Below are positions 2,587 to 21,921 of a stretch of 64,000 bases of DNA, in pieces (the stretch's first letter is position 1; each line of letters starts with the position of its first letter). Origin of the DNA: Verrucomicrobiales bacterium (GTDB lineage Bacteria > Verrucomicrobiota > Verrucomicrobiia > Verrucomicrobiales > DEV007); assembly GCA_029213195.1 (NCBI GenBank), contig JARGNI010000002.1, positions 124,001 through 188,000 on the forward strand, in the 5' to 3' direction. The notes under the pieces were generated by a model, which saw only the letters and a list, made by a program, of their open reading frames with translations, had not been told where the DNA came from and did not search any database. The position numbers were made by a program, and so were the translations under genes.

Positions 2587-2630
2587 ATTACTGTGCGTCT
2601 TTTCGGCGCTCCTGCGGCCGGACCGATTCC

Positions 2631-3752
2631 ATGTGGCAAAGATTCAAAACGTTCCCCTTTCTCTCCGCGGTGATCCTGCTGGCTCTGAATATCCGCATGG
2701 TGACCAGTGGATTGACCGGCGTGGGAATCGCCGCTTTTGGCATCACTCTGTTCTGGTTTGGTTTCGAGTTCATCCGTTGGCTGATTCTTCCACCTGCCCC
2801 GGGAGAAGATCCGGAGAACCCCTCCGTATCCGACAGTGCCCCCGAAGAGACAATCACCTCGCTCGTCTACTTCCTCGCCGAGCCTCGAACCGCTGACGAG
2901 CAGATGATCCGCGAGTTGGTCTCCTCGGCTCTGGGGCGCGAATTTTCCACCGACGATTCCGAGCCGGAGAACTTCGTGATTCAGTTTCGAAATCCCGAAT
3001 CGTCCCGTCTCGAAGAGGACGCCATCGTCCGGTTCCTTGTACGAATTCCGGAAGGAAACTTTGCCATCCTGCTTTCCGACTCTCCCTACATCGAAAACCC
3101 CGAGGAATTTGCAGAGCAGTCCATCCGCGACAAACGTCTCCGGAATGCCATCGAAGCTCATCGTGCCTGGCTATCGGTCGACTGGATGGATGACCCTCCG
3201 CCTCCTGAACAGAGTAAGAAAGTCTACGGAATCATCGGGAAAATTCTCTGCGCTTTTGCAGGTCCCGACTGCCTCGCGATCTACTCACCGGAACTTCATC
3301 GCTGCAACGAGTTTGATTTGTCTCTTCTCGAAACGCTTGGGAGTGGCCAACCCCTCGAACTATTCGAGGAACCCACGTTCGAACCCATCATCGAAATTTC
3401 TGACAGCAACCCAAAGATGGCCGCAGCCGTCGCCAAGGCAAAGAAGCGATGGCCCGAATTCACGGATCGGTTTTCCAGGGCCTCGAAAGAAGACCGCGAA
3501 AAATTCATCGTCAAGGCAGAGTTCCGGGAAGGAACTGCCTGCGAGTATATGTGGGTCGCCGTGACCAGGATCGAGCCGGACACGGTGGAGGGCATTCTCA
3601 TGAATGACCCCCACGAACTGCTCGACGTCCACCGGGGCGCCGAGGTCCGCTTCGGAATGGATCGCCTCAACGACTGGATCTACTCAGACGACGACGGCCT
3701 GCATGTCGGCGGATTCACTCTCGATGTCCTTGCCGAGGGAGACGAGGACTAG
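2631..3752 (+). CDS. DUF2314 domain membrane protein
   Basis: The 373-residue product has two hydrophobic helices near its N-terminus (about residues 6-25 and 30-50), then a long cytoplasmic or periplasmic part. The last about 90 residues carry the DUF2314 pattern: EYMWVAVTRIEPDTVEGIL, then NDPHELLDVHRGAEVRF and DWIY. The function of this family is unknown. I chose ATG 2631 because the first membrane segment begins just after it; the frame is open further upstream, but that part overlaps the preceding gene's 3' end and reads as non-coding. A hairpin directly follows the stop. Confidence 0.8.
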   Translation: MWQRFKTFPFLSAVILLALNIRMVTSGLTGVGIAAFGITLFWFGFEFIRWLILPPAPGEDPENPSVSDSAPEETITSLVYFLAEPRTADEQMIRELVSSALGREFSTDDSEPENFVIQFRNPESSRLEEDAIVRFLVRIPEGNFAILLSDSPYIENPEEFAEQSIRDKRLRNAIEAHRAWLSVDWMDDPPPPEQSKKVYGIIGKILCAFAGPDCLAIYSPELHRCNEFDLSLLETLGSGQPLELFEEPTFEPIIEISDSNPKMAAAVAKAKKRWPEFTDRFSRASKEDREKFIVKAEFREGTACEYMWVAVTRIEPDTVEGILMNDPHELLDVHRGAEVRFGMDRLNDWIYSDDDGLHVGGFTLDVLAEGDED

Positions 3753-3777
3753 GGGCGAGATAATCTCGTCTCGCCCC
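3752..3777. terminator. Hairpin between convergent genes
   Basis: A perfect 9-bp inverted repeat (GGGGCGAGA / TCTCGCCCC, 8-base loop) begins on the last base of the DUF2314 stop codon and lies just before the convergent oxidoreductase stop. There is no strong T-run on either side, so it may act as a weak bidirectional terminator or an mRNA 3' end protector. Confidence 0.5.
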
Positions 3778-3791
3778 CTCTCTCGCATGGC

Positions 3792-5159
3792 TCAAAGGCT
3801 CCAGCCGTCCCGGTAATTGTGGAAGACCAGGGCATCGGCGTCGGCATTCCCCGTGGTCATCTTTTCCGCATCCCAGGTCAACTCGGTTCCAGGTCCAAGC
3901 AGTGATCCGATCACGCCCAGCAACAGGGTTTCGGTCAGGGGAACGGCGACATCGAAGTTTGATTTTGCCAGCGAGGGGTCGTTCTTCTGAATCGCGTCGA
4001 TCCACTCCTGGTAGTGCCCGGGAGAACGCTCCTCCGTTTTCTCAGGAGCCTTGTGCGCCGAGTGATTCGCATCGATCACGGTAGGAGCACCGCCATGGCT
4101 TCCGTGCATGATCGTGTGCTCGCTCCCCAGGTAGACGCACCCGTTATCGGGCACCTTTTTATCACCGCGCATCCCGGCAGGGGTGGGAATCTTGTATTTA
4201 CCGTCCAGCCACTGCAACTTCACAGGCCCATGATTTTCAGTGGCGGCAAATTCATAATTGATGATGCAGGAAGAGGGATGCGAGTCTTTCTCCGCACCCG
4301 GAGTCGACCGATCCGCCTTTTCTACGCTTACCTTGGTAGGGAGTCCCAGACCCAGAGCCCACATCGGATGATCGATGATGTGAGCGCCCATATCTCCGAG
4401 AGCACCAGTGCCGTAGTCAAGAAATCCTCGCCATTTGAAAGGAGCAATCTTGCTGCTGAAAGGCTTCTCGGGCGCCGGTCCCAACCAGAGGTCCCAGTCG
4501 AGGGTTTCGGGAACGCCCTCCGCTGCGGGACGGACCAGATCCTGGGGCCAGATTGGACGGTTTGTCCGACAGTAGACCTGCTCGACCTCCCCGATCGAAC
4601 CAGATTGAATGAACTCATTGGTTCGGCGAGCTCCCTCGGCCGCGTGACCCGTGTTTCCCATCTGAGTGCACACCCCTTTTTCTTTGGCTGCGGCATGAAG
4701 AGCCCGCGCTTCTGAGATTGTCAGCGTCAGGGGCTTCTCTACATAGACATGCTTACCCATCTGGATCGCAGCCATCGCAGAAACGGCGTGCAGGTGATCG
4801 GGAGTCGAGATGACGACGGCGTCGATGGCATCCCCCTCCACTTCCAACATCTCCCGCCAATCCGTGTAGCGCTTGGCGTTCGGATACTTCTTGTAGGAGC
4901 CTCCGGCACGAGCCTGATCCACATCGCAGAGTGCATAGACGTTGTGACCGGTCTTGGCACAGCCTTGAATATTGGCATTTGCGCGACCTCCTGCTCCGAT
5001 GAAGGCGATATTGAGCTTTCCTCCCGCACTCTTCGACTCCCCCTGGGCAGCCAGGTAGCCACTGAGAAGGTTGGTCGAGGCGGCTGCACCTGCGGTGACT
5101 CCAAGAAATTTTCGACGGTCGGTTCGGGGAAAACTGGGGTTTTGCTCTGATCTAGTCAT
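3792..5159 (-). CDS. Tat-exported Gfo/Idh/MocA family oxidoreductase
   Basis: A 455-residue NAD(P)-dependent oxidoreductase-like protein, probably acting on a sugar or cyclitol in the periplasm. The N-terminus has a twin-arginine signal (TDRRKFLGVTAGAAAS). The Rossmann motif IAFIGAGGRANANIQG follows near residues 48-63, then VISTPDHLHA and the family hallmark EKPL (HVYVEKPLT). The C-terminal domain includes GDMGAHIIDHPMWAL. I chose ATG 5159 because it places the RR motif at the usual distance; longer upstream starts add unrelated sequence. The length and the glycine-rich insert match the planctomycete/verrucomicrobial exported subgroup. The substrate is unknown. Confidence 0.9.
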   Translation of the reverse strand: MTRSEQNPSFPRTDRRKFLGVTAGAAASTNLLSGYLAAQGESKSAGGKLNIAFIGAGGRANANIQGCAKTGHNVYALCDVDQARAGGSYKKYPNAKRYTDWREMLEVEGDAIDAVVISTPDHLHAVSAMAAIQMGKHVYVEKPLTLTISEARALHAAAKEKGVCTQMGNTGHAAEGARRTNEFIQSGSIGEVEQVYCRTNRPIWPQDLVRPAAEGVPETLDWDLWLGPAPEKPFSSKIAPFKWRGFLDYGTGALGDMGAHIIDHPMWALGLGLPTKVSVEKADRSTPGAEKDSHPSSCIINYEFAATENHGPVKLQWLDGKYKIPTPAGMRGDKKVPDNGCVYLGSEHTIMHGSHGGAPTVIDANHSAHKAPEKTEERSPGHYQEWIDAIQKNDPSLAKSNFDVAVPLTETLLLGVIGSLLGPGTELTWDAEKMTTGNADADALVFHNYRDGWSL

Positions 5160-6355: not shown

Positions 6356-8554
6356 TCAATAAATCCGCGTCGACCAGCTGGCAACCGGCTGACGAATGAG
6401 GCGCAAACTCATCAGCGAACGGGCATCATTTTCAGCCATTCCTCGAATGCTTTGATTGTCGAAGGCAAAAGTAGGGCTATGGCTGACCCACCGATTCGAA
6501 GGAGGAAACGGCTTGGGATCGGAATCATTCGCGGTCGCAACCGTGATCTCAACCTTGATGCCGAGGACCGACTCGATATTCTCCAAGCTCCATGGGTGAC
6601 GATGCAAATAGCTTCTCGGAATCCGAACCTCGAGAAGCCTGCTCCCGTCTTCGGCCGTTCGTAAGACGGAAGCAATCCCACGGGGATCGAGAATCATATC
6701 GTATCCGGCACCGAATGATCCCAGGAGAATTTCAGGCGTAACGCCCGGTCCATCCTTGGCCTTGGCAAAGACCCGTATGGGCTCGATCGCACCAAAGCTC
6801 ATCACTTCTTCGGAGGGCCTCGCGTCGAGAAAGATCTTGGCTTCGAGCGCGGGACGCTCCCCGAGATCAGGAAGCCTCACTCCCTGGATCGCGGCCACCA
6901 TGTAAAGCGCGTTTTCATCCGCTTCAAACCGAACAGCAACGCGCTCGGTCTCTCGTGCAGCCGCACGCCGTTCCCCGGCCGGGAGAGCGTTTGCATACCG
7001 AGTCCACTTTCGAAGCTCACGGGGTTCTCCGAGCACCAGGTCACGGGTTGCCTCCATCTCACGGCTGAATCTTGTTACCACCCCTCCCACATCTACCTGG
7101 ATCCAGATGTCTCGCTGGAACTGATCAAGATCGGCTTCCGGAACGAAGTCAAAAAGAGAAAACACGGTCTTCGTTCCGAGAGGTGAAGCCGAAAAATTGG
7201 TGGGCTGCCCGACCTTGTCTCCATAGCCAACCTGGAAGGTCCCCGAAACGGGCTTATCCGTTCCATTGACAAGGTCCCACTCCACCCGGATGCGATCGTC
7301 CACATTGAGGAATTGCCGGGACTTCCAAACCGCAGTAATGGGGCCGATTCGTAAAGGAAGATCGACCAACTCTGAGCGGAAAGAGTCTTCGACAAAGAAA
7401 CTGAAACGACTGAACTCATCGGAAGGCTCGAGGGGATACAGGATATCACTTCCGTCACGAGCCTGACCTACAACCGGTCTCCGATACCGAAACGAAAGTT
7501 GCGCCGTCCCACCTGGAGCGATCGAGAATCGCTTCGCAGCCTCGACAGGAATCAATCCCCCACCGACCGCTAGGGCACCGATCGTGCCTTCCTGTGGATC
7601 CTCCGTTTGATTCCGAATCGCGAGGACGACTCCCACAGTTCCAGAGGAGTCGAACTGGGCAATACCCGCGTAGGAGAAGGGAGAACTGCCTGGCCCATCC
7701 TTGAGCGTATTGAAGAGGGCTTCCCCGAGGTAGTCGTTTGCTCGCTCCCCAGGATGGACACGCTCAGCAGGGATCCCCGGACCAAAACGGAAGATCTGGC
7801 TCAATCGATCGCTCAACACCGCAATGACCGCTCCCGGTTCCGTGTCGGCATTGACGCCGCCTCCAAACTTGGCGAGAAGCTTCCCGCAATCAAGATAGAG
7901 GACGTTCTCACTCCGTGCGACCTCTCTCGCCACAGTGGCGTAGGGCCGGGTAACGCCCCACCCCACTTCACCCGCTCCATATTTGACGAGACTGGGAGAA
8001 AAAAGGATCACATCGGCATTCTCTTCCTTGGCGCGAGCTACGATGCCGAGCAGCGCTTTCCGATACGTATCGACCGAGATCCTCCCGAAAGCATCGTAGA
8101 TTCCATACTGAACCAAGACCAAGTCCGGATTGTGAACAAACGCATCCGTAGTCGCATGACGAAGGCCCGTCAGGGAAGTCGCATCGAGGTGGCTGAAATT
8201 CTCGAGGGTGATCTCATCCCCAAGATATGGAGAAATCTTCGCCTTTCCGCCCGAGGGCGGGTTCAGGAGTCTCACTCCCCCTGGATAGAAGAATTCCTTG
8301 GCGATCTGCGAAAGAAAGACCCCAGTGAAACCATACAGCGGATTGTTGGGTTCCCAGGCTTTCGGATCCGGAGTATAGCCCCCCGTCACACTGTCGCCTA
8401 ATTGGATGACATGAACGGGATCGCGAGCTTCCAGTTTCGGAAACGTACGCGGAAGGAACTGATGGAAACGCTCCCGCTGCTCCAGTGTGAATGGAAAAGA
8501 GAAGACCGGTGCGACGAAGAAAATCGCACAAAAAAGAACGCCGACAAATTTCAT
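6356..8554 (-). CDS. Secreted SGNH/GDSL hydrolase with C-terminal beta-rich domain
   Basis: A 732-residue exported hydrolase. It opens with a signal peptide (MKFVGVLFCAIFFVAPVFS). The catalytic SGNH module occupies about residues 30-280: VIQLGDSVTGGY carries the nucleophile Ser, LVQYGIYD is the block III equivalent, and RVHPGERANDYLGEAL carries the terminal His. A long beta-sandwich region follows, and the last about 200 residues resemble a CBM9/DOMON-like carbohydrate-binding module (IESVLGIKVEITVATANDSD, SHSPTFAFDNQSI). It may de-esterify a polysaccharide outside the cytoplasm. ATG 8554 was chosen because the signal peptide begins there. It is separated from the PKS-NRPS by a terminator, so a link to that enzyme is not implied. 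Confidence 0.82.
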   Translation of the reverse strand: MKFVGVLFCAIFFVAPVFSFPFTLEQRERFHQFLPRTFPKLEARDPVHVIQLGDSVTGGYTPDPKAWEPNNPLYGFTGVFLSQIAKEFFYPGGVRLLNPPSGGKAKISPYLGDEITLENFSHLDATSLTGLRHATTDAFVHNPDLVLVQYGIYDAFGRISVDTYRKALLGIVARAKEENADVILFSPSLVKYGAGEVGWGVTRPYATVAREVARSENVLYLDCGKLLAKFGGGVNADTEPGAVIAVLSDRLSQIFRFGPGIPAERVHPGERANDYLGEALFNTLKDGPGSSPFSYAGIAQFDSSGTVGVVLAIRNQTEDPQEGTIGALAVGGGLIPVEAAKRFSIAPGGTAQLSFRYRRPVVGQARDGSDILYPLEPSDEFSRFSFFVEDSFRSELVDLPLRIGPITAVWKSRQFLNVDDRIRVEWDLVNGTDKPVSGTFQVGYGDKVGQPTNFSASPLGTKTVFSLFDFVPEADLDQFQRDIWIQVDVGGVVTRFSREMEATRDLVLGEPRELRKWTRYANALPAGERRAAARETERVAVRFEADENALYMVAAIQGVRLPDLGERPALEAKIFLDARPSEEVMSFGAIEPIRVFAKAKDGPGVTPEILLGSFGAGYDMILDPRGIASVLRTAEDGSRLLEVRIPRSYLHRHPWSLENIESVLGIKVEITVATANDSDPKPFPPSNRWVSHSPTFAFDNQSIRGMAENDARSLMSLRLIRQPVASWSTRIY

Positions 8555-8614
8555 ACAATCGTGATCGCCGCTCCCTAGACGAACGCCAACCGTCAATCCT
8601 TAGGAGAGCTTACC

Positions 8615-8665: not shown

Positions 8666-11600
8666 TCACGACGTTGTCGAGCTACCGCGCTGTTTTTCTC
8701 GAAATTCCTGGATTCCTTCTTCGGGAAGGAAGAATCCAGTCATTTGCAGCTTAGCCGGTGAAGCTCCCATCTCTTCCAGGAACTCGTAATGTGCGAGGGC
8801 ATCGTCGTTCTCCAACTCACCCAGTGTCGGAGCCACGTCCTCACTGAGCCCCGTAAGGAGACTGACGAGCACACAGCCCGTAATTTCGTTCTTGTCCCGA
8901 CTCTGGAGAAACTTCAGGAAACCGAACTGAACGGAATCGTCGACCTCTTCCATCTCTTCTGGCAGATAGATCGTCTCCGCGACGACATCAGACATTCGGA
9001 GTTCTCCGCCAGTGGTGAAAAGAATGTCTCTTTCCTGGGTGAAACGCTTGATCGCTTCATCAACACGGAACACAGGTGGGAAACTGTAATCCACCACCAG
9101 GGTTCCCGGCTTCAGAGAATCCATATCCAGCACTCCAGGAAGATTGGTCGAGGCAATGACCAGGGAAGCATCATAGACCTCCGGAGGAAGCGCCCCGCCG
9201 TTCTTGACGATGTCGATCTGGCCCTGGAATCCGGCATCGCGAACGCGATCCCGAATTCGGCTCATCTGGTCATCCGTTTGATACGGATCGCAAAGAATCA
9301 GATGCTTTGGATGGTCGAGAACATCGAGCATGAGACGGAGGGTGCCGAATCCAATCGAACCCAGCCCGACAACCGAGATCGTCTCGCCCGGAATTTCCCT
9401 CTTTGCCTCGGCCAGAATCCCCTCCACCGACTTCACGATGGTCGCAGAACGCGTCGCATCACCTGTCGTGATTTCAGGGAGATTCTCCCGATCTTCCATC
9501 CACTCTTCGATATCCCGTCCATGACGAGTCGTGGAAGGAATCACGCCGGTCAGAGAAACGGTCTTCGCCCCTGCCTTCCCGGCCATCTCCAGCGCTGCCA
9601 GTGTGGTCGCTTTCGTGGAAGCTGGGTCCGTGTAGAAGTCAGCTTCGAAACAAGGCAACATGATGACCCCGATCTTGCCCTGCTCCAGGGTATAGGTATT
9701 GCTCAAGAGAGGCTTGCCGCCAAAGAGTCGCTCCGAAATCTCATCACGGGTCATGCCTGACATGCTCGCAAGGACCTCCGGGATGTATGTCAGAGCCACG
9801 GCATCCAGATCAGGCAGATCGTCGGAAGCCATCTCCACGTCGATGTGCTCCAAGTCCTCGATATCGAGATCAGCCAAGGCTGGACTCTCATCGGTAGTGG
9901 TCTTCACCGGCTTTGTATCACTGGAGAGGTAGCCTGCCAGTTGCTCGATCGTTGGATTCGTCAGGAAGGCATCGACAGCCACGTCTCTCTTGAACGATTC
10001 CGAAACGTCCACAACGATTCGCAAAGCCATCAGGGAGTCTCCCCCCATCTCGAAGAAATTGTCGGTCACGCCAATGTCTTCCGAGTCGAAGTTCCGGCTG
10101 AAAATTTCCCAGAGCTGCTTCTCGACTTCCGAGCGAGGCTGAACTCTCTCGCCGACGCTGGCAGCTCCGATCTTCGGCATCGGCAGTTGCTTGCGATCAA
10201 TCTTCTTGTTCGGAGTCAAAGGGAACTCCGGTAGGACCGCAAAATAGGCCGGGATGTAGCTGGCCGGAAGCTTGCGGGAAAGCTGACTCCGAATCTGGGA
10301 AGCTTCGAGAGCAGGACCTTCGGCAATATAATAACCGACAAGCCCCTCCCCACTCGGGAGATCCTCTCGCTTCGTCACGACGGCTTGCTTGATGCCATCG
10401 ATGGCTTCCATCTGGGTCTCGATATCCCCGAGTTCCATCCGAACGCCTCGGACTTTGACTTGGAAATCGACACGACCGAGACACTCAAGTTTGCCTTCCC
10501 GATTCCAACGGGCGAGGTCACCAGTGCGATAAATCCGCTGGGTTCCGACCTCGGGAAGCTCGACTTCCTGGAAGGCAGCCGAGGTCAACTCAGGCTGATT
10601 TCGGTAGCCGCGAGCCAGTCCATCACCACCGATCCATAGTTCTCCCGTAAAGCCCTGGGGAACAGGTTTGTGATTCGTATCGAGGATGTAGACCTGCGTG
10701 TTGGCAATCGGGGTTCCGATGGAAATCGCGGCATCGCTCTCTTCGATCTTTTCAACTGAAGACCAAACCGTCGTCTCCGTAGGACCATAGAGGTTCCACA
10801 GTTCATCGGCAGAATGGACCAGAGTATTCGCGAGAGTGCGATTGAGCGCCTCTCCACCACAGAAAATGCGGAGACCACTGTTTCCTTCCCAACCGCTGTC
10901 GAGAAGCATCTGCCAGGTCGCAGGGGTCGCCTGCATCACGGTGATGTCCTCCTCGGTGATCAGGTTGGCGAGGCGTCGTCCATCCTTCACATCATCCGCA
11001 TCGGCAATCACTACCGTAGCACCAGCCAGTAGAGGCAGGAACATCTCAAGAAGAGAAATATCGAAAGACAGGGTCGTAACGGCAAGGAGGCGATCCTTGC
11101 TGGTCAGTCCGGGAGTCTTCTCCATCGAGCGCAAGAAATTTACGGCTGCGCGGTGAGGAATCTCGACCCCTTTCGGTTTTCCAGTCGAACCCGAGGTGTA
11201 GATGATGTAGGCAAGAGAATCTGATGCCAATCCAGACGGTGTCGGAGCTTTCGAAGTGCCTTCGATCTCATCGAGATCGAGAACTTTCCAATCTCCTTCC
11301 GGGAGAGAACCGAGGAGACGGGACGAGGCGACCAGCGCCTTCGGTGCCGCATCTGCGAGCATCATCTCCAACCGCTCTTCCGGAAACTCCGGATCCAGCG
11401 GGATGTAGGTCGCACCGGCCTTGAGTGCGCCAAGGAGCGCGGTGATCATCTTGGGAGAACGATCGGCCAACACTCCGACATTGTCGCCCGGCTTCACACC
11501 GGCCTCGATCAGGTCGCGTGCCACTCCGTTTGCCTGGCGATTGAGAGACCCGTAGGTCATGTGCGTCTCTCCAAAAATCACGGCAGTGTCTTCATCGCGA

Positions 11601-14600
11601 TCTGCGACGACAGCCTCGACCAACTCGTGAAGCAATCCATCGGTCTCGTAGTCCGAAGCGGTGTCGTTGAAGTCGACGAGAACCTCTTTTTCCTCTTCGC
11701 TTCCGAGGAGATTCAGCTCCGAAAGTCGTGTATCGGGACTGGAGGTAATTTCCTTGAGGACTTGCTCGTAGAGTCCGCTGAGTTCCTGAATGGTGGCTTC
11801 GTCGAACAGATCGCTGTTGTACTGCCAGCATCCAAAGAGCTGTCCTCCGGCTTCCTCGAGCACGAGGGTAATCTCAAACTGCGACTGTCTCGTCGTCAGG
11901 TCGATGGTCTCCATGGAGAGGTCCCCCACATGGAAGGTATGCCCCCCCTGTCCGATCAGGAAAACGGCGATTCCCGCCTCGTCAATTCCCGGCACCTTCT
12001 CCATCGAGAAGCTCACCTGGAACAGCGGCGAACGCCCTGGATCCCGAGGCACCTTGAGACGATCGACCATGCGAGCAAGAGGATACTGCTGGTTCTCCAG
12101 CGCTCCGTTCACTTGCAGGCTGTTGTTCGAAAGAAACTCGGAAACAGTGGGATCGCCCTCGACTGTGCTGCGAACGGGGACCGGGTTGATGTAGTATCCG
12201 ACCGTGCTTCGCAGCTCCGGCTGCGTTCTGCCCGCGAGCGGAACCCCCACCACGATATCGTCCTGCTGACAATAACGGTGCATGAGAATGTCGTAGGCGG
12301 AAAGCAGGGTCGTGAAGAGCGTCACGTTGTTGGCCTTCGCCAACTCATCGACCGCCGTGGTCAGTTCTTCGCCATACTGAAATCCATGGGTTCCCCCATT
12401 GAAGGTCTGAATCGCAGGACGCGGACGATCCGTCGGCAGATCGATCACGCTGGGAGCACCGGCCAGATGCTCTTTCCAGAAATCGAACATCTGTTCGCCC
12501 GCCTCGCTCTCTAGGTGCGCACTTTCCCACTTCACGAAATCCGCATAGCTGGCCTCGACAGGCTCGACCTGAGGAGTCCGACCGCCTTTAGCTGCAAAGT
12601 AGTATTCAATGAGGTCCTGAATCACGACCGACACCGACCATGCATCGGAAACGATATGATGCATCGTGAGCAGCGCGACGTGAGCGTCGTCTGCCGTCAG
12701 GAAGAGTTCCAAGCGCACCACCGGTCCCCGTTCCAAGTTGAAGGGGCGAGCGGCGTGCTCACTGATCATCTTCTTCAGTTCCTCGTCATCGAGATTGGTG
12801 CAGTCATGCTCTCGAAAATCGACGGTGCGTCCTTTGTGAACAACCTGCATCGGCTCTCCGTCCTTCGTCGTGAAGGTCACGTCGATCAGAGGATGGCGCT
12901 CGAAAAGCAGGGAGAAGGCGGTCTTCATCGCCTCGATGTCCAGCTTGGGACGGAACTTGCCTGAAAAGTTCAGGTTGTAAGCGGAAGAGTCCGGAGCCAA
13001 ACGGTTGAGGAACCAGAGAGCTTTCTGCCCCTCGGAAAGAGGAAAGACATCGGGCATATCCCCGGTCGCCTCGAACTCGACGAGACTGCCTGCATCGATC
13101 CCGCCCCCTTCGCTGGAGGCACCTCCACCATTCTCGAGAAGCTTCTCGAGGACGGGTTCGGAGAGGTCCCGAATATTGGGTCCATTAAGAACCGATCCCA
13201 TTGGCATGGTCATGCCCAGCTTCTCCTCGATCCGGTTGACCAGCTCGATCGCCATCAGCGAATCCAGTCCCAGGTTGGTCAGCGGGGTATCCTTGTCGAG
13301 GCGTGCCGCATCGGTTCCAAGAACCGCTCCGACCTGTGTTGCAATCAAGTCCTCAACCATCCCCATCCGCTTCTCCGCAGGGGCTTCGAGAATCCGAGCC
13401 GCCATGGAGTCTCCTCCTCCGGAACTGGAGCGAGGAACGACGGGGAGGAACATGTTCGACCCGCCCACGGAAGGACTGAATCGTCCAAGCGCCTGCCAGT
13501 CACAGCGGGCAGCTCCAAGCTGGTAGGCATCCGAGGGCACCCCGAGACTGAAGAGATAGAGGGTCTCCTCCATGTTGGTGGCACCCAATCCAACCATCTC
13601 CAGGTATTGCTGCGTCTTCTCGTTCCGCGCGACAAAACCGGCTCCCTCGAGAGCTCCCCAGTTGAAGGTGAGCGAAGGAAGTCCCAGCGAACGGCGATAA
13701 TGCGACAACTGATCGAGAAAGACATTACCCGCGTTGTAATTCGACTGCTTCACTGCGCCAATCACCGCAGAGAAGGAAGAGAAATTGATGAAATGCTCGA
13801 GCGGAATATCGAGCGTAGCCTCGTGAAGATTCCAGGCTCCCAGCATTTTCGGCAGGAGAACCCGATCGAAGCGCTCTGCATCGAGTTCATTGAGAAACTC
13901 GTCATCGAGAACCATCGCCCCGTGAATCACTCCAATCAGCGGGGCATCACTTTCCTGAATGTCCGCCACGATCCGATCGATATCGGCACGGCTCGTGACA
14001 TCTCCCCGAGCATCCATGATGGAGACTCCGGAAGCCTTGAGCTTCTCGATTTTTTCCTGCGCGTCCTCCTTGGGACCGGAACGGCTCATCAGCGCAAAAT
14101 GACGCGCTCCATTCTGGGTCATCCATTCCGCCAATTCTAGTCCGAAACCTCCGGCTCCGCCTGTAATCAAGTAGGTGCCGTCTCCGCGGAAACGGTGACC
14201 TTCCTCGGTAGGTTGCCCGATCTCAATCTCCGGAACATCGAAGTCGAGAACATTCTTTCCGATGTGCTTTCCGGCCGCCATGAAGCGGAAGGCTTCGACC
14301 ACCTCTGTGATCGGGAAAACTTCGTTCGGCAGCGGCACATAGGACTGATCGTAAAAGAGGGCTTCCAGATCCGAGAACATCCGCGCGACATACGAGGGCT
14401 TGCTCTGCAGGTGCTGAGCAAGGTCGATGACAAAGAAGCTGATATTGTTCCGCAGGGGCTCGAGACCAATTTTGGAATTGCCATAGACATCGACTTTCCC
14501 GATCTCCATGTATCTTCCAAAGGTCTTGAGGACACTGAAATTCTTGGGAATGAAATCCCCGGCAAGAGAGTTCAGGACCGCATCGACCCCTTCCCCATCG

Positions 14601-17600
14601 GTAATTCGCATGATCTCGTCCGCGAACTCCAGGGTTCGGGAGTCAAGCACGTGGTCGACTCCCATATCTTCAAGTAGCTTGCGCTTCTCAGGAGTCCCGG
14701 CAGTGGAAAAGATCTCGAGTCCAAGGTGCTTGGCAATCTGGATCGCCGCTTGGCCGACACCACCAGTTCCTGCATGAATGAGAATGCTCTCGCCTTTCTC
14801 CATGCGAGCCAGCTCGTTGATCGCGTAGTGCGAGGTCAGGAAAACGGTAGGCAGAGTCGCCGCCTCGACGTGAGTCATCGTATCCGGCTTCCGGAAGACC
14901 ATGTCCCGATGCACCGTCACAAAGCTACGGAAGCAATAGGGCGCCATTCCGACAACGTTGTCTCCGACACTGAGATCTTTCACATTCTTGCCGACCTTGA
15001 CGACAGTTCCCGAGAAATCATCTCCGAACCACTTGAGGTCGACCGGGTTGCCCGGATAAATTCCGAGAGCCTTCATGACATCCCGGAAGTTGATTCCGCC
15101 GGCCTTGATCTGAATCTCGATCTCGTCCTCTTCTGGATCGCGACGCACCGTCTCGTTGAGAGAAAGGTTGGTGAGAATCCCTGGCTTGTCGATTTGAAGT
15201 CGGTAGGGCAGCACGGAACCGTCCTCTTGGACCGCATTCCGGGTTCTCGGTGGCAGGTCCTCGGCTTTGACACGATGAACCCGTCGCGCATAGCGGCTGT
15301 TACCGCGAAACGCGATCTCGTGCTCACGATCCGAATGGAGAATCTCTGCAATCAGATCTTCGAGTTCGAATTCATTCTCGTTCGGATCGAGATCAATCTG
15401 GCCCCAGCAGTATTCCGCCGCCTCGTTGTTGGCGACGCGAAGAAGACCGGTGATGGGTGCCGAAGCAAGCCCCGGAAGCATCTCTCCGCGAATGACCGGC
15501 ATCGTTCCTCGAGTCAGGAAGGTCACATCTGGTTTGGACGTCCACTCCCGACCCGTCAGGTGCTGAAACAACTCGTGGGCAAATCGAACTCCCGAATCCT
15601 GCGCCTTGTTGAGCACCTCGAGATTCAATGCATCCGCTCTCGGATGATCGAGAGGAAGCGTAACGACGATTTTCTTGATCGTACGCTCCTCCTCACCGGC
15701 TTTTGAAATGGCTGTATCGATCGCTTCGACGCTGCCTTCCACCAGCAACGGCTCGAAAACATCACTACCCAACGAGGTAACGAGCTCCCTTCCGAGACCG
15801 GACTTGTCTTCCGTAACCAGGACCAGCGGAAGCGCGATCGCCTCCTCGGCTCCACTTTCTTCCTCCTGAGCCCCCTCGACGTCGTCCTCGACCGATGGCT
15901 CGACGGGCTCCGGTGCTCGACCGATGAGACAGGCCTGCTGGTTTTGCTTCGGATCTTCCGAACTGATGAAACTGTCTACTCCCCGGTAGCCGAGATCGCT
16001 CAGGAATGCCTCCCACTCTTCACGAGAGAGAAGGGCGGAATCCTTCCGTAGATCCGTGTCCTTGAAACGCCACCAACCTGGGAGAAGTCCAAAAACATTG
16101 TCGAGAGCCGCTCGACGCCAGGTCACCTCGAGGAACATGAGGACCCCATCAGGAGCGAGCGCTCGCTGGAGATTTCGAAACGTCGCCTTCAGATCCTCGG
16201 TCGCATGAATGACATTGGAAGCCAGGATGATATCAAAGTGGTGCGGATCGAATCCCTGAGATTCCGGATCTTTCTCACAGTCGAACATCTTGTATTCGAC
16301 AAAGGGAAATTCCTCCCCAAATCGGTCTTCCGCAGCCTGCAGGAAAAGCGGGCCGTTGTCGGTGAACACATACTCTGTCCGGTCCGAAGGGAAGACGCTG
16401 AGGATGTTGCTGGTGAGTGAGCCCGTTCCGGCCCCCACTTCGAGGACGCGGATGGCCCGTCGCTCAGGCAGATCGGCTACCGCCTTGACGAGAGCATCCC
16501 GAATCTGGTCATTGATCACGGGAAAGTCAGCACCCTCGCGGTAGAAACGCTCCATGATGCGTGAAGAGCCGCCTGGGAAGAGAACTTCCAGGGGATCGGT
16601 TTCTCCACTGAGAACGCCCGCTAGATTGGGGCCTGAAAGTCGCTGGAGTTCCGCTTCGGAAGCGAAGTCGGGCATATCCTCAGCGAGCTTGTCGAGGTAG
16701 GGCAAGGCGTCTTCGTCGCCCGGCACTTCGATGACCTTCCATTCGTCTTCACTCGACGGCTTGAGGAATCCCCCTTCTTCGAGAGATTTGAACTGTCCCC
16801 GAATGAGCTTGGTATGCTGGTCCGCAATCGCGAGATCCCTCATCAGCCCCTCGATCGTCAGGGTGTCGCCCTCGCTGGGATTCCATCCCAATTCGAAGTA
16901 GGCGTTGATGATGAACTGGCGCGAGATTTCATCCAAGGCAGGAAGGAACTTGCCGTAATGATTGGCCAGTCCTCGCTTCTCGTAGTACTCCGGCAGCTTC
17001 TCGTTGGCGGCAGAAACCAGCTCCTTCGGATCTGGCAGTTTCGCATCACCGTCTTCCCGAGTGCCTTTGAGACGAGCAATCTCCCACTTCGCCTGGTAGA
17101 GACATTTCTCGAGATCGTCGTTGTTGCTCTGCTCGATGCGATCCGCGCGGAACCCATAGATCTCGGCCACAAGTTCCCCGGCATCGTCATAGACGTCGAT
17201 GTCAGCAATGATGTATTCGCGATCGTTGTCTGAGTTCACCTTGGCATGGCCCCAGAGGCGCAGCGGAGGACGCTCCACATGCAGACGAATGCTTCGAATC
17301 GCCGCCGGCAGATAGAAATAGTCCTCGGCATTCGCTCCATCGGGAATGACCTGGCCACCTTTTACGGTGTGGAAACACGCATCGAGAACGGCGGGATGGA
17401 AATGATGATCCGGGATCGTGTCATAGAGCCCTTCCGGTGCGACAATCTCCGCGAGACACTCTCCGTCTTTTCTCCAGACATTCTGCAAGTGCTGGAAAAG
17501 AGGACGGAATTGATACCCAGCCTCTTCGTAATCCTCGTAGTATTCGTCGTGATCGAAATGACGCGGCAGCTCCGCCTTCACCTTTTCGAAATCGAGCGTC

Positions 17601-20600
17601 GGTTTGTGCGGCGCGGGCTGCTTTCGAAGTACGCCCTGGGAGTTCAAATCCCACTCACCCTTGTCCCCGGTCGAAGAGAACACCTGGAAGATGCGGGTGT
17701 CGGGATCGAATACGACCTCGACGGTGGGCACCTTCTCCTCGGAAACGAAGAGTGCTTTCTTCATCTCGAGGTCTTCGACGACATAATTTTCGTCAGGGAA
17801 GAGCTTGCGTGCGATCGCAATCCCGATCTCGCCATAGCCAGCCGCCGGAAAGACGACGCTGTCCCAGAAACGGTGATCGTCGAGCCAAGTGAAATAGCGG
17901 GGATCAAGTTCGAAACGCCAGGTCGGATGCGGCGCAGTCTGCTTGAGCCCAAGCAAGGGATGCTCGAGGGGAGCGCACCGGAGGTATTCCCCCTCCTTGG
18001 ACTCCAACCAGAAGATTTCCTTCTGCCAGGCGTAGGTAGGCAGGCGAACTCCTTTGGGCGAAGCCTGGTTCACAGATTCCCAATCGAGTTCGTAGCCGTG
18101 ATTGTGCAGGCGAGCCAGGTTCGAAAGCATCTCGACGGACTCGTCCGTCTTCCGCTTGAGACTGGAGAAATAGAATCCTTTCCGACTTTGATCGGAGAGA
18201 CACTCCATGATGGGATTCTGAAGAGCCGGGTGAGGTCCCAGCTCGAGGAAAGAATCCTCTCCCGAGCGAATCAGGTTTTGAATCGCGGGAGCAAACAAGA
18301 CCGCTTCCCGAACGTTGTTCCACCAGTATTCGGCGTCGATCTTGGCCCCCTCGTAGACACCTCCAGTCACCGTCGAGATGTAAGGAATCGTCGTTGCACG
18401 CGGCTTGATGTCCTTGAGGACCTCGAGAAGCTCGTCCTTGATCGGCTCCATCTGGTGCGTGTGAAAAGCGTAGTCGATGCGAAGCCAGCGGACGAATTTG
18501 CCCTGCTCTTCCAAATCGGCGACCACCTCCTCGAGAGGCTCGGTATCCCCTGCCAGGGTAAGAAGACCGGGACTGTTGACCACGGCGACCTCGACCTGGT
18601 CCTCTTTTCCTGCGATCGCCTTCCTGGCTTCGGCTTGCGAAAGGCCGACCGCCACCATGCGACCGTTTCCACCGGTTTGGTCCTGAAGTCGAGAACGATG
18701 ATAAATCACCGTGACGGCGTCTTCCATCGTGTAGGCGCCAGCCACGTAAGCCGCAGCCACTTCTCCGACCGAGTGCCCGACAACCTTGGACGGCACGATG
18801 CCCCACGATTTCCACAATTCTGCGAGAGCAACCTGGAGTCCGAAAATTGCGGGTTGGGCGATGTTCGTCCGATTGATCTGCGAACTCTCCTCGTCCTTGG
18901 TCATCTCGTCGATAAGCGACCATCCTGCGAGAGGTTTGAGATGGGTATCGATCTCCTCGAGTACGGCGCGAAAGACGGGCTCCCGCTCGAGAAGGTGTTG
19001 ACCCATCGCCCACCACTGGGCTCCCTGTCCGGTAAAGACGAAAACAAGAGGGTGAGTTTCTCCCGACGGTTTGCCCGAGATCGCAGCCTCACTGTCTCCC
19101 GTGGCGAGCCACTCCGTCATCTCATGGATGAAGTCGTTCTTGGTCTGAGCCACGAACGCGAGTCGATTGTCGTGATGCTCGCGCTTCAGGCCGGCCGCGG
19201 CTCCGATCGCTGCGATGTCTGCAGTGGAACCGCGAAGGAAACGCTTCCAGCGCTTGACGGTGTCACGAAGCGCATCGTCACCTCGAGCTGACAAAGGCAG
19301 GAGGACGGGACGTACCGCTTTCTCCTCCGTGGCACTTCCACTGAGAGTGACGCTGTCCTGAGAGGACGGCTTTGCCGCCTCTTGCGCCGGCGCGGCCTCG
19401 AGGACGATGTGGGAATTGGTTCCCCCAAAACCGAAGCTGTTGACCCCGACCACGGGAAGCTTTCCATCGAGATGAGGCAGCGGTTGCAACTCGGTGCAGA
19501 CCTTGAATTTGAACTCATCGAACGGAATGTTCGGGTTCGGGTTCTTGAAATTCAGGTTCGCCGGAACCTGGTCATGATGAAGGACCAGGGCAGCCTTGGC
19601 GAGTCCGGCAACTCCGGATCCCGATTCGAGGTGGCCGACATTGGTCTTCACCGATCCAAGCAGGCAATAGTCATCCTCATCACGGCCCTGCGAGAGGACT
19701 TGCCCAAGGGCACGAGTCTCAATCGGATCTCCGACCGGAGTGCCCGTTCCATGAGCCTCCATGTAGCGAACCGCCTTTGGCTCCAAACCAGCCTGATCGT
19801 AGGCGATTCGAAGCATTTCGGCCTGGGTCTCCACACCGGGAACGGTCATCGAGGAGGTGTTTCCATCCTGGTTGATGACCGCTGCCTTGATCGTGCAATA
19901 CACCCGATCGCCATCCGCCTGAGCTTGGCTCAGCGGCTTGATCACGAACATTCCGGCGCCCTCGCCTCGCACGTAACCGTTGGCACGATCATCGAAAGCG
20001 AAACACTGACCCGTCGGCGACAGCATCGTCGCCTTGGAGAATCCGATGGAAGCGTCCGGAGTAAGCAGGGCATTACACCCCCCAGCCAACGCCATGTCCG
20101 CCATTCCGGACCAAACCGATTCACAGGCGAGATTGATTGCGACGAGAGCCGACGAACAAGCCGTGTCAACGGAGACCGCGGGTCCCTTGAAATCGAGCAG
20201 GTAAGAGATCCGGTTGGAAGCAATCGAGAGCGTCGAACCGGAATTCGTGTGCACGTCGACATTCCGAGGATCGCTCTGGGCGACGTTGGCGTAGTCGTTC
20301 GAGGCGATACCGACGTAGACGGCTGTGTTTGATCCACGGAGCTTGTCCGGAGCCATTCCCGCATCTTCGAGAGACTCCCAGGCCGTTTCCAGCATCCAGC
20401 GCTGCTGGGGATCCATCCGCAGCGCCTCTCGGGGTGAAATCCCGAAGAACTGGGCATCGAACCGGTCGAAGTCGTGAATGAATCCACCCCACTTCGTGAT
20501 CATCTTTCCCGGGATGTCGACATTGTCGTGATGCCAACGCTCTCGATTCCAGCGATTGGAGGGAACAGGGACGATCCCGGATCGCTCCTCCACCATCATT

Positions 20601-20698
20601 TGCCAGAAAGATTCGGGCCCCGTGACACCGCCGGGGAGGCGGCATCCAATCCCTACAATAGCCAGGGGCTCACGCGTCGCTGATTGGTTCTCAGACAT
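8666..20698 (-). CDS. Iterative-type hybrid PKS-NRPS megasynthase with terminal acyl-ACP-reductase-like domain
   Basis: A 4010-residue cytoplasmic assembly line. Domains by motif: KS about 10-435 (DTACSSA, Cys181; EAHGTGT near 317); AT 550-850 (GHSVGE, Ser643; AFH near 741, the malonyl-type signature); DH 910-1215 (HxxxDxxxxP near 940; HPAVLDACFH near 1103); C-methyltransferase about 1330-1600 (VLEVGAGTGSLT); KR structural part 1640-1830; ER 1836-2155 (HAGTGGVGQ); KR 2170-2420 (YLITGGAGGFG, YNAGN); ACP (GLDSL, Ser2480); C 2549-3000 (HHIVSDAW); A 3022-3505 (YTSGSTGKPKG, YGPTE); PCP (GGDSL, Ser3555). Residues about 3640-4010 resemble cyanobacterial acyl-ACP reductase. Known chemistry suggests a methylated, reduced polyketide joined to one amino acid, probably glycine, and released by reduction. 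There is no loading module or TE. It is the only biosynthetic gene recognised here. Confidence 0.95.
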   Translation of the reverse strand: MSENQSATREPLAIVGIGCRLPGGVTGPESFWQMMVEERSGIVPVPSNRWNRERWHHDNVDIPGKMITKWGGFIHDFDRFDAQFFGISPREALRMDPQQRWMLETAWESLEDAGMAPDKLRGSNTAVYVGIASNDYANVAQSDPRNVDVHTNSGSTLSIASNRISYLLDFKGPAVSVDTACSSALVAINLACESVWSGMADMALAGGCNALLTPDASIGFSKATMLSPTGQCFAFDDRANGYVRGEGAGMFVIKPLSQAQADGDRVYCTIKAAVINQDGNTSSMTVPGVETQAEMLRIAYDQAGLEPKAVRYMEAHGTGTPVGDPIETRALGQVLSQGRDEDDYCLLGSVKTNVGHLESGSGVAGLAKAALVLHHDQVPANLNFKNPNPNIPFDEFKFKVCTELQPLPHLDGKLPVVGVNSFGFGGTNSHIVLEAAPAQEAAKPSSQDSVTLSGSATEEKAVRPVLLPLSARGDDALRDTVKRWKRFLRGSTADIAAIGAAAGLKREHHDNRLAFVAQTKNDFIHEMTEWLATGDSEAAISGKPSGETHPLVFVFTGQGAQWWAMGQHLLEREPVFRAVLEEIDTHLKPLAGWSLIDEMTKDEESSQINRTNIAQPAIFGLQVALAELWKSWGIVPSKVVGHSVGEVAAAYVAGAYTMEDAVTVIYHRSRLQDQTGGNGRMVAVGLSQAEARKAIAGKEDQVEVAVVNSPGLLTLAGDTEPLEEVVADLEEQGKFVRWLRIDYAFHTHQMEPIKDELLEVLKDIKPRATTIPYISTVTGGVYEGAKIDAEYWWNNVREAVLFAPAIQNLIRSGEDSFLELGPHPALQNPIMECLSDQSRKGFYFSSLKRKTDESVEMLSNLARLHNHGYELDWESVNQASPKGVRLPTYAWQKEIFWLESKEGEYLRCAPLEHPLLGLKQTAPHPTWRFELDPRYFTWLDDHRFWDSVVFPAAGYGEIGIAIARKLFPDENYVVEDLEMKKALFVSEEKVPTVEVVFDPDTRIFQVFSSTGDKGEWDLNSQGVLRKQPAPHKPTLDFEKVKAELPRHFDHDEYYEDYEEAGYQFRPLFQHLQNVWRKDGECLAEIVAPEGLYDTIPDHHFHPAVLDACFHTVKGGQVIPDGANAEDYFYLPAAIRSIRLHVERPPLRLWGHAKVNSDNDREYIIADIDVYDDAGELVAEIYGFRADRIEQSNNDDLEKCLYQAKWEIARLKGTREDGDAKLPDPKELVSAANEKLPEYYEKRGLANHYGKFLPALDEISRQFIINAYFELGWNPSEGDTLTIEGLMRDLAIADQHTKLIRGQFKSLEEGGFLKPSSEDEWKVIEVPGDEDALPYLDKLAEDMPDFASEAELQRLSGPNLAGVLSGETDPLEVLFPGGSSRIMERFYREGADFPVINDQIRDALVKAVADLPERRAIRVLEVGAGTGSLTSNILSVFPSDRTEYVFTDNGPLFLQAAEDRFGEEFPFVEYKMFDCEKDPESQGFDPHHFDIILASNVIHATEDLKATFRNLQRALAPDGVLMFLEVTWRRAALDNVFGLLPGWWRFKDTDLRKDSALLSREEWEAFLSDLGYRGVDSFISSEDPKQNQQACLIGRAPEPVEPSVEDDVEGAQEEESGAEEAIALPLVLVTEDKSGLGRELVTSLGSDVFEPLLVEGSVEAIDTAISKAGEEERTIKKIVVTLPLDHPRADALNLEVLNKAQDSGVRFAHELFQHLTGREWTSKPDVTFLTRGTMPVIRGEMLPGLASAPITGLLRVANNEAAEYCWGQIDLDPNENEFELEDLIAEILHSDREHEIAFRGNSRYARRVHRVKAEDLPPRTRNAVQEDGSVLPYRLQIDKPGILTNLSLNETVRRDPEEDEIEIQIKAGGINFRDVMKALGIYPGNPVDLKWFGDDFSGTVVKVGKNVKDLSVGDNVVGMAPYCFRSFVTVHRDMVFRKPDTMTHVEAATLPTVFLTSHYAINELARMEKGESILIHAGTGGVGQAAIQIAKHLGLEIFSTAGTPEKRKLLEDMGVDHVLDSRTLEFADEIMRITDGEGVDAVLNSLAGDFIPKNFSVLKTFGRYMEIGKVDVYGNSKIGLEPLRNNISFFVIDLAQHLQSKPSYVARMFSDLEALFYDQSYVPLPNEVFPITEVVEAFRFMAAGKHIGKNVLDFDVPEIEIGQPTEEGHRFRGDGTYLITGGAGGFGLELAEWMTQNGARHFALMSRSGPKEDAQEKIEKLKASGVSIMDARGDVTSRADIDRIVADIQESDAPLIGVIHGAMVLDDEFLNELDAERFDRVLLPKMLGAWNLHEATLDIPLEHFINFSSFSAVIGAVKQSNYNAGNVFLDQLSHYRRSLGLPSLTFNWGALEGAGFVARNEKTQQYLEMVGLGATNMEETLYLFSLGVPSDAYQLGAARCDWQALGRFSPSVGGSNMFLPVVPRSSSGGGDSMAARILEAPAEKRMGMVEDLIATQVGAVLGTDAARLDKDTPLTNLGLDSLMAIELVNRIEEKLGMTMPMGSVLNGPNIRDLSEPVLEKLLENGGGASSEGGGIDAGSLVEFEATGDMPDVFPLSEGQKALWFLNRLAPDSSAYNLNFSGKFRPKLDIEAMKTAFSLLFERHPLIDVTFTTKDGEPMQVVHKGRTVDFREHDCTNLDDEELKKMISEHAARPFNLERGPVVRLELFLTADDAHVALLTMHHIVSDAWSVSVVIQDLIEYYFAAKGGRTPQVEPVEASYADFVKWESAHLESEAGEQMFDFWKEHLAGAPSVIDLPTDRPRPAIQTFNGGTHGFQYGEELTTAVDELAKANNVTLFTTLLSAYDILMHRYCQQDDIVVGVPLAGRTQPELRSTVGYYINPVPVRSTVEGDPTVSEFLSNNSLQVNGALENQQYPLARMVDRLKVPRDPGRSPLFQVSFSMEKVPGIDEAGIAVFLIGQGGHTFHVGDLSMETIDLTTRQSQFEITLVLEEAGGQLFGCWQYNSDLFDEATIQELSGLYEQVLKEITSSPDTRLSELNLLGSEEEKEVLVDFNDTASDYETDGLLHELVEAVVADRDEDTAVIFGETHMTYGSLNRQANGVARDLIEAGVKPGDNVGVLADRSPKMITALLGALKAGATYIPLDPEFPEERLEMMLADAAPKALVASSRLLGSLPEGDWKVLDLDEIEGTSKAPTPSGLASDSLAYIIYTSGSTGKPKGVEIPHRAAVNFLRSMEKTPGLTSKDRLLAVTTLSFDISLLEMFLPLLAGATVVIADADDVKDGRRLANLITEEDITVMQATPATWQMLLDSGWEGNSGLRIFCGGEALNRTLANTLVHSADELWNLYGPTETTVWSSVEKIEESDAAISIGTPIANTQVYILDTNHKPVPQGFTGELWIGGDGLARGYRNQPELTSAAFQEVELPEVGTQRIYRTGDLARWNREGKLECLGRVDFQVKVRGVRMELGDIETQMEAIDGIKQAVVTKREDLPSGEGLVGYYIAEGPALEASQIRSQLSRKLPASYIPAYFAVLPEFPLTPNKKIDRKQLPMPKIGAASVGERVQPRSEVEKQLWEIFSRNFDSEDIGVTDNFFEMGGDSLMALRIVVDVSESFKRDVAVDAFLTNPTIEQLAGYLSSDTKPVKTTTDESPALADLDIEDLEHIDVEMASDDLPDLDAVALTYIPEVLASMSGMTRDEISERLFGGKPLLSNTYTLEQGKIGVIMLPCFEADFYTDPASTKATTLAALEMAGKAGAKTVSLTGVIPSTTRHGRDIEEWMEDRENLPEITTGDATRSATIVKSVEGILAEAKREIPGETISVVGLGSIGFGTLRLMLDVLDHPKHLILCDPYQTDDQMSRIRDRVRDAGFQGQIDIVKNGGALPPEVYDASLVIASTNLPGVLDMDSLKPGTLVVDYSFPPVFRVDEAIKRFTQERDILFTTGGELRMSDVVAETIYLPEEMEEVDDSVQFGFLKFLQSRDKNEITGCVLVSLLTGLSEDVAPTLGELENDDALAHYEFLEEMGASPAKLQMTGFFLPEEGIQEFREKQRGSSTTS

Positions 20699-20940: not shown

Positions 20941-21921
20941 TTACAGGAGGTCGGAAACGGCTTCCCGCTCTTCACGAAGTTCCTGCACGGAAAGATCGAT
21001 TTTTTCGCGGCTGAACTCATCCACGGGCACATCCTGCACAATTTCCCAGTTCTCGCCATCGGAGCGGATTGGAAAAGAGGAGATCAGCCCCTCGTCGACG
21101 CCATAGGAACCATCGGAACAGACACAAACGCTGTTCCAGTCTCCTTCCGGCGTGGGTGTCGTCAGTCCTTTCACGGTATCGACAACCGCGTTGGCCGCTG
21201 ACGCCGCAGAAGAAAGCCCTCGAGCAGCAATGATGGCCGCGCCACGCTTCTGAACCGTCTCGATAAACTCACCCTTCAACCAGGCATCATCTCCGATCTT
21301 TTCCACCGCAGGAGCGCCCCCGATCCTGGCATTGGTGAAATCAGGATACTGCGTCGCCGAGTGATTGCCCCAGATCGTTGTGTTGCTGACTTCGCTGACG
21401 TGAACTCCCGCTTTCTGTGCAAGCTGGGTCTTGGCCCGATTCTCGTCCAGTCGAGTCATCGCAAACCAACGGTCGCTCGGAACGTCTGACCCACTGTTCA
21501 TCGCGATGAGACAGTTCGTATTGCAGGGATTCCCGACCACGAGAGTGCGGACATCGGAAGCTGCGTTGGCAGCGATCGCCTGCCCCTGTCCCGTAAAAAT
21601 CTTGCCGTTGATCCCCAGCAGATCACCACGCTCCATTCCTGCCTTCCTAGGGACACTTCCCACGAGAAGCGCCCAGTTCACATCCGAAAACCCTTCGTTC
21701 AGATCGGAACTGGCACGAATATCCGTCAGCAAAGGAAAAGCACAGTCATCCAACTCCATCACGACCCCTTCGAGGGCGTTCATGGCCGGTTCGATCTCGA
21801 TCAAGTTCAAGGCGACCTTCTGGTCAGGACCGAACATGGCCCCGCTGGCAATGCGGAAGAGCAGGGAATATCCGATTTGACCGGCGGCTCCGGTGACAGC
21901 GACGCGAATGGGGTTACTCAT
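20941..21921 (-). CDS. mdh: NAD-dependent malate dehydrogenase
   Basis: A 326-residue cytoplasmic TCA-cycle enzyme interconverting malate and oxaloacetate. The N-terminal dinucleotide motif [19 protein letters not shown] is that of the type 2 (cytosolic-like) MDH group. Further hallmarks are [36 protein letters not shown] (substrate-binding Arg) and the catalytic His in [12 protein letters not shown]. The length is as usual for the family. It is the last gene of a minus-strand run with malQ 66 bases upstream. Confidence 0.97.

Follow-up and report, generated by a model that had tools for sequence, protein, structure and literature searches.

A verrucomicrobial PKS-NRPS with fungal-type domain order and a carmabin-type terminal domain

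The release domain of fungal highly reducing PKS-NRPSs (HR-PKS-NRPSs) is of the SDR-type R/Dieckmann kind. In bacteria, the polycyclic tetramate macrolactam (PTM) PKS-NRPSs have the order KS-AT-DH-KR-ACP-C-A-PCP-TE, without cMT and ER domains, and the available sections of the same source describe a monomodular KS clade from Verrucomicrobia, Planctomycetes, Bacteroidetes, and Proteobacteria as uncharacterized, with architectures termed PTM-like (PMC10308959). A terminal domain related to the one treated here sits after the PCP in the vatiamide and hectoramide synthases, and carmabin A is tied to the same ending; primary amide release has been proposed for the vatiamide/hectoramide-type domain, and the enzymology of terminal amidation is stated, in the part of that article drawn on here, to be not yet studied (PMC10949194).

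The window, i.e., the whole stretch of DNA that was analyzed, comprises 64,000 nucleotides of a Verrucomicrobiales genome and carries a single uninterrupted ORF of 4010 aa on its minus strand. Pfam searches recovered from this protein, in order, KS (residues 10-384), AT (552-868), DH (913-1191), a methyltransferase (within ~1401-1572), ER (1857-2151), KR (2174-2351), a carrier (2451-2514), Condensation (2550-3005), AMP-binding (3029-3365), and a second carrier domain; the chain is closed by a homolog of the carmabin TAD, an acronym that we take to mean "terminal amidation domain." The features, with the evidence for each in parentheses, are as follows.

8666..20698, minus strand: hybrid PKS-NRPS gene, KS-AT-DH-cMT-ER-KR-ACP-C-A-PCP-TAD, 4010 aa (ORF, Pfam, phmmer)
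19379..20671, minus strand: ketosynthase, residues 10-440, with C181, H316, and H356 (Pfam, residue check, tree)
18095..19045, minus strand: acyltransferase, residues 552-868, with GHSVGE and YAFH (Pfam, motifs)
17126..17962, minus strand: dehydratase, residues 913-1191, with H942 and D1106 (Pfam, residue check)
15983..16498, minus strand: C-methyltransferase, residues 1401-1572, with SAM motif, H1498, and E1524 (Pfam, motifs)
14243..15199, minus strand: enoylreductase, residues 1834-2152, with GGVGQAA motif (Pfam, motif)
13646..14179, minus strand: ketoreductase, residues 2174-2351, with S2307 and Y2321 (Pfam, residue check)
13157..13348, minus strand: acyl carrier protein, residues 2451-2514, with S2480 (Pfam, residue check)
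11684..13051, minus strand: condensation domain, residues 2550-3005, with HHIVSDA (Pfam, residue check)
10184..11614, minus strand: adenylation domain, residues 3029-3505, pocket DILQFGLVWK, predicted for glycine (Pfam, pocket comparison)
9899..10111, minus strand: peptidyl carrier protein, residues ~3530-3600, with S3555 (Pfam, residue check)
8693..9820, minus strand: terminal release domain, residues 3627-4002, carmabin TAD homolog with NAD-type Rossmann motif and C3942 (phmmer, fold match)
20941..21921, minus strand: lactate/malate dehydrogenase, next gene upstream, in 16/16 genus loci with room (neighbor survey)
6356..8596, minus strand: SGNH/GDSL-type hydrolase, next gene downstream, in 12/16 genus loci with room (neighbor survey)

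Domain order and conserved residues

All of the catalytic residues checked are unchanged across every genus sequence that covers them. The AT motifs are read by us as malonyl-type, and the first DH motif has a D at a position where, as we take it, the consensus usually has G. In pairwise comparisons with six genus relatives, dN was 0.02 to 0.27 and dS at least 1.3 or saturated in each domain tested, values that indicate strong constraint and suggest that purifying selection acts on all tested domains, ER and cMT among them. One open frame of 3991 to 4039 codons with an identical domain order was found in 17 of the 18 genus loci fetched, the 18th being truncated at a contig end; hence, the ORF is neither a chance nor a frameshift product. 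This disposes of the frameshift that the original prediction had named as a possible refutation. Its domain list, KS-AT-DH-cMeT-ER-KR-ACP-C-A-PCP in one chain of 4010 residues, was right in order, length, and intactness of the frame but stopped short of the terminal TAD and came without a strand. The resemblance that it drew to fungal HR-PKS-NRPSs likewise stands for layout and size, given that the solved enzyme PsoA has 4007 aa, but does not extend to the release domain, which is not of the fungal type. Its description of a single PKS module lacking a loading domain agrees with the one KS that was found, merely 9 residues lying ahead of the KS motif.

The adenylation pocket code, DILQFGLVWK, may be set beside the glycine code DILQLGLIWK. 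Within the domain, D3213, Q3256, and W3312 are spaced by 43 and 99 residues, identical to the spacing of D656, Q699, and W755, which the available text of PMC11253843 describes for glycine-activating DhbF (PDB code 5U89). Among one-stretch PDB matches, the A domain scores highest against this same 5U89 (423 bits), followed by the glycine-activating 4ZXH (415 bits). The triad is kept in 41/41 readable verrucomicrobial copies (40 complete A-domain codes among 44 verrucomicrobial loci, plus the window), as well as in an alphaproteobacterial copy; outside this count stand L054, which agrees at the 8 of 10 positions read, and L068, L074, and L084, which are cut off. The adenylation domain is predicted from this pocket to select glycine.

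The terminal domain and the phylogeny of both protein ends

The chain extends ~400 residues past the PCP, and residues ~3627 to 4002 form an extra domain of ~375 residues for which no Pfam family was found. A phmmer search against PDB sequences matched it to 9e4x and 9e4s (E = 2e-71). The model generated from a 30-row alignment (mean pLDDT, 91) had as its best fold match the entries entitled "TAD from Carmabin Biosynthetic Pathway" (Foldseek TM, 0.9; VIA-align Z, 54), with 35% identity between the two domains. Next came the cyanobacterial acyl-ACP reductase (AAR; PDB code 6jzu; Z, 29; ~17% identity), and the remaining fold matches listed had Z values of at most 14. From C3942, which is column C332 of the alignment and invariant in 30/30 rows, to the C terminus, the phmmer alignment with the carmabin chain is free of gaps; by the chain numbers of the structural alignment, C3942 falls on Cys2238, which is disulfide-linked to dephospho-CoA according to the title of PDB entry 9e56. 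Other entry titles record that the carmabin TAD was crystallized with NADH and NAD. With a TAD homolog and its cysteine directly behind the last carrier domain, the protein belongs among the TAD-terminated synthetases. We rejected a C-terminal thioester reductase or TE of the ordinary kind for want of any such Pfam match, and no Pfam family of an SDR-type reductase or Dieckmann domain was found anywhere in the chain. Our search of the open-licence literature found no paper on the carmabin TAD structures or on an HR-PKS-NRPS-TAD layout.

In a tree of 49 KSs, in which 13 of 46 inner branches were drawn open and resolution is poor at depth, those from Verrucomicrobia group together as one clade (support, 100/98). 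Constraining them to a joint clade with modular KSs (four from Streptomyces plus CurL) was rejected (P = 2e-7), and with it membership in modular assembly lines, for the references used; the original prediction had named just such a placement as grounds for its refutation. A joint clade with the KSs of TAD-bearing actinobacteria and Chloroflexi was marginal (P = 0.04). One with the fungal KSs PsoA and LovB was not rejected (P = 0.12) but is absent from the best tree, although a first FastTree had placed the fungal pair inside the same wider clade (0.86); these two fungal KSs sit on a long branch. In the best tree, an alphaproteobacterial KS groups with the verrucomicrobial ones (65/97), and the KS appears as a separate lineage of its own. 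The phylogenetic check proposed at the outset sets the KS apart from modular KSs, with a fungal grouping neither demonstrated nor rejected. By bit score, the KS is closer to the bacterial PikA (449) and CurL (447) than to the fungal PsoA (337) and LovB (328); no PTM KS to serve as a reference was found among nine Streptomyces genomes. In the TAD tree, grouping the verrucomicrobial TADs with the alphaproteobacterial one was not rejected (P = 0.17), and the branching order within Verrucomicrobiota matches that of the KS tree, from which it follows that the KS and TAD ends of the protein were probably inherited together.

Genomic setting and distribution

The TAD was found in 29 of 56 relatives, all of them in the genus of the window, a genus of uncultured Verrucomicrobia. 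There, the gene is present in 29 of 33 genomes, including all 25 with a completeness of 80% or more, and the four genomes without it are 53 to 77% complete. The upstream malate dehydrogenase gene (mdh) serves us as a marker of the fixed site, with no pathway role claimed for it, and the surrounding stretch also carries rho and pilus-type genes. A mobile or strain-specific island was rejected since the site is fixed across the genus loci with room. Whole-protein identity to relatives is 71 to 89% for the synthase, against 79 to 90% for MDH and 58 to 78% for a GH77 neighbor; i.e., the synthase is conserved about as well as its housekeeping neighbors.

Elsewhere in the same genome, two ACPS-family (PPTase) matches were found, one of them within a 258-codon frame, and the condensation domain of the synthase is the only one found. 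A second type I PKS locus lies on another contig (G000:C81:50001-70000, L051) and encodes KS-AT-DH-KR-ACP-KS-AT plus an A-PCP gene; the PKS gene has no C domain, both of its KSs group elsewhere in the tree, and the leader ahead of its KS is longer than the 9 residues of the synthase, which looks self-contained by these comparisons.

A survey of 387 genomes of the phylum with the TAD profile returned one positive, the window's own. Outside the genus, the gene is thus probably rare, although the survey may undercount, as few candidates were scored per genome and a scan of GTDB genome contigs did find other lineages. From the latter scan, 80 of 107 confirmed places were kept, 44 of them verrucomicrobial. 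These 44 loci share the layout wherever there is room, except for L091, which is split over three frames; 29 have all eleven domains, and contig ends truncate 14. In the domain survey, KS matches are partial because the loci comprise 10 kb upstream. One locus, L088, belongs to a record entitled Akkermansia muciniphila; with a genome of ~6.5 Mb and this PKS-NRPS, the MAG is probably mislabeled. Among the same 80 places, one alphaproteobacterial MAG has the same layout without cMT, the TAD terminates plain NRPSs in cyanobacteria, Chloroflexi, and Planctomycetales and A-CP-KS-AT-KR-CP-C-A-CP-C chains in actinobacteria, and it stands alone in Hahella, Erwinia, and Robbsia. A plasmid search for the TAD returned 3 records.

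Several side observations concern other loci. In Oscillatoria sp. PCC 10802, an NRPS that ends in a TAD (L096:4487-11122) contains in its final module a PilZ-type domain, a type that usually binds c-di-GMP. In Pantoea, Hahella, and Erwinia (L029:10537-16101, L103, L108, and L110), a stand-alone TAD gene has large NRPS genes and a gene for a KS-AT-CP protein in its vicinity, with a gene for a MupA-type luciferase-like monooxygenase in between in the Pantoea region. In Paraburkholderia and Caballeronia (L136 and L201), reducing PKS genes with a single module adjoin an LTA synthase-family gene, and the Caballeronia PKS also neighbors a UDP-3-O-acyl-N-acetylglucosamine deacetylase gene; these neighbors hint at envelope lipids.

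In distant genomes, the PKS-NRPS gene can be accompanied by the following gene.

L087:11243-12400 and L092:11283-12395, also in the genomes of L085, L091, and L093: PKS-NRPS-adjacent sulfotransferase (PF13469)

Such a Sulfotransfer_3 gene lies next to the PKS-NRPS in five of the nine distant genomes searched (downstream in 4 and divergent in 1) and is unlinked in 3 and absent in 1, a pattern that is no more than suggestive of a pathway partner and of a possible sulfation of the product. Homologs occur in 29 of 33 genus genomes versus 1 of 23 others. In the genus they are unlinked to the PKS-NRPS and have lpxB and a gene for an M28 peptidase as neighbors in 5/5 fetched loci other than the window's own; hence, we claim no pathway link for the genus of the window.

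Proposed mechanism and comparison with known systems

We propose, with a probability of roughly 0.55, that the gene encodes a self-contained, iteratively acting bacterial HR-PKS-NRPS that makes a methyl-branched acyl-glycine, which its TAD releases as a primary amide. The simplest reading is an iterative enzyme that works alone: it has one KS, lacks a loading domain, and begins with a leader of nine residues, and neither a linked PKS nor any further C domain was found in the genome. The single PKS module would load a small acyl starter, add malonyl units repeatedly, and reduce the chain fully or nearly so, with the cMT methylating some alpha carbons. The C domain would then couple the acyl chain to PCP-held glycine, and the TAD would take the N-acyl-glycyl thioester off the PCP, using its conserved cysteine together with a nicotinamide cofactor that it binds, presumably yielding an N-acyl-glycinamide. 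We infer the iteration, the starter and extender, the methylation pattern, and the chemistry of amide release, as well as the product's role as a lipid-like metabolite that is conserved; the primary amide is chosen because the nearest TAD homologs end pathways with primary amide products.

The main rival to this amide release keeps the iterative enzyme and has its TAD act reductively, as in acyl-ACP reductase, to give an N-acyl-aminoacetaldehyde and perhaps from it an N-acyl-ethanolamine. NAD(H) is bound in the solved TAD entries, and the second-closest fold match is a reductase that forms aldehydes, with which the domain shares the fold, a catalytic-type cysteine, and the Rossmann motif, making the aldehyde a real alternative, which we rate as possible. 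The sulfotransferase paired with the gene in some distant lineages would also fit, since such an enzyme requires a hydroxyl or amine acceptor. Against it, the domain is closer in sequence to the carmabin TAD (35% identity) than to AAR (~17%), and the named products of TAD pathways in the relevant part of PMC10949194 are primary amides.

Two further readings concern the PKS half. The synthase may be fed in trans from the second PKS locus, its module acting once, in ordinary modular fashion, on a chain made by another PKS such as the one on contig C81; the presence of that gene and its adjoining A-PCP gene speaks for such an arrangement, which the short leader, the separate contigs, the rejected clade with modular KSs, and the constant position of the gene in all genus loci with room render improbable. 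A gene of fungal origin, or a derivation of the fungal HR-PKS-NRPSs from this bacterial lineage, could account for the common order and size and would accord with the P value of 0.12 and the first FastTree, but we consider it very unlikely because the KS, the PKS half, and the A domain all score closer to bacterial enzymes, the best tree puts the sampled pair of long-branched fungal KSs elsewhere, and the release domain is of a bacterial type.

Bacteria, too, have the full fungal HR-PKS-NRPS layout, cMT and ER included, and it has stayed stable across deep divergences within Verrucomicrobia. It offers a second natural system, with an intact and conserved ER motif, in which the choice of methylation, reduction, and chain length by iterative enzymes is open to study, and it couples an HR-PKS to a release domain of a type for which the accessible text of PMC10949194, a recent article, calls the chemistry unstudied. 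Every genus genome of 80% completeness or more has the gene, and its site is the same in each case with readable flanks, which raises the question of whether a core component of the cell may be made by a megasynthase. We would advance only tentatively, as a somewhat doubtful idea, that this is a core, near-housekeeping megasynthase of fungal style whose amidated, methyl-branched N-acyl-glycine lipid, sulfated in some lineages, serves the envelope or signaling rather than chemical warfare.

Among known systems, the fungal pseurotin synthase PsoA (PDB code 9x29) is likewise one chain, and both its PKS half and its C-A-PCP half align with the verrucomicrobial enzyme over most of the length (4007 versus 4010 aa). 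The latter differs in being bacterial, in having a KS and an A domain closer to bacterial enzymes and an intact, conserved ER motif, and in carrying a TAD where fungi have their R/Dieckmann domain. Mycocerosic acid synthase (MAS), the best whole-chain PDB match, is likewise a fully reducing PKS, though one that, as we understand it, has no cMT, NRPS module, or TAD. AAR shares the fold and the cysteine of the release domain but is a stand-alone protein. The carmabin, vatiamide, and hectoramide terminal modules have a homologous (carmabin, tested here) or reportedly equivalent release domain right after the PCP; they are NRPS modules, and the part of PMC10949194 consulted mentions no chain that joins them to an iterative HR-PKS. 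The PTM enzymes, which are iterative, also fuse a single PKS module to one NRPS module, but the verrucomicrobial protein falls outside their layout in having cMT, ER, and TAD and no TE family found by Pfam. With the monomodular KS clade of PMC10308959, it shares the phyla and the single module, and the available description of that clade names no cMT, ER, or TAD. The two probably overlap, so that the existence of the family had already been hinted at; what is new relative to that account is the cMT, the ER, the glycine pocket, the TAD, and the core-genome position.
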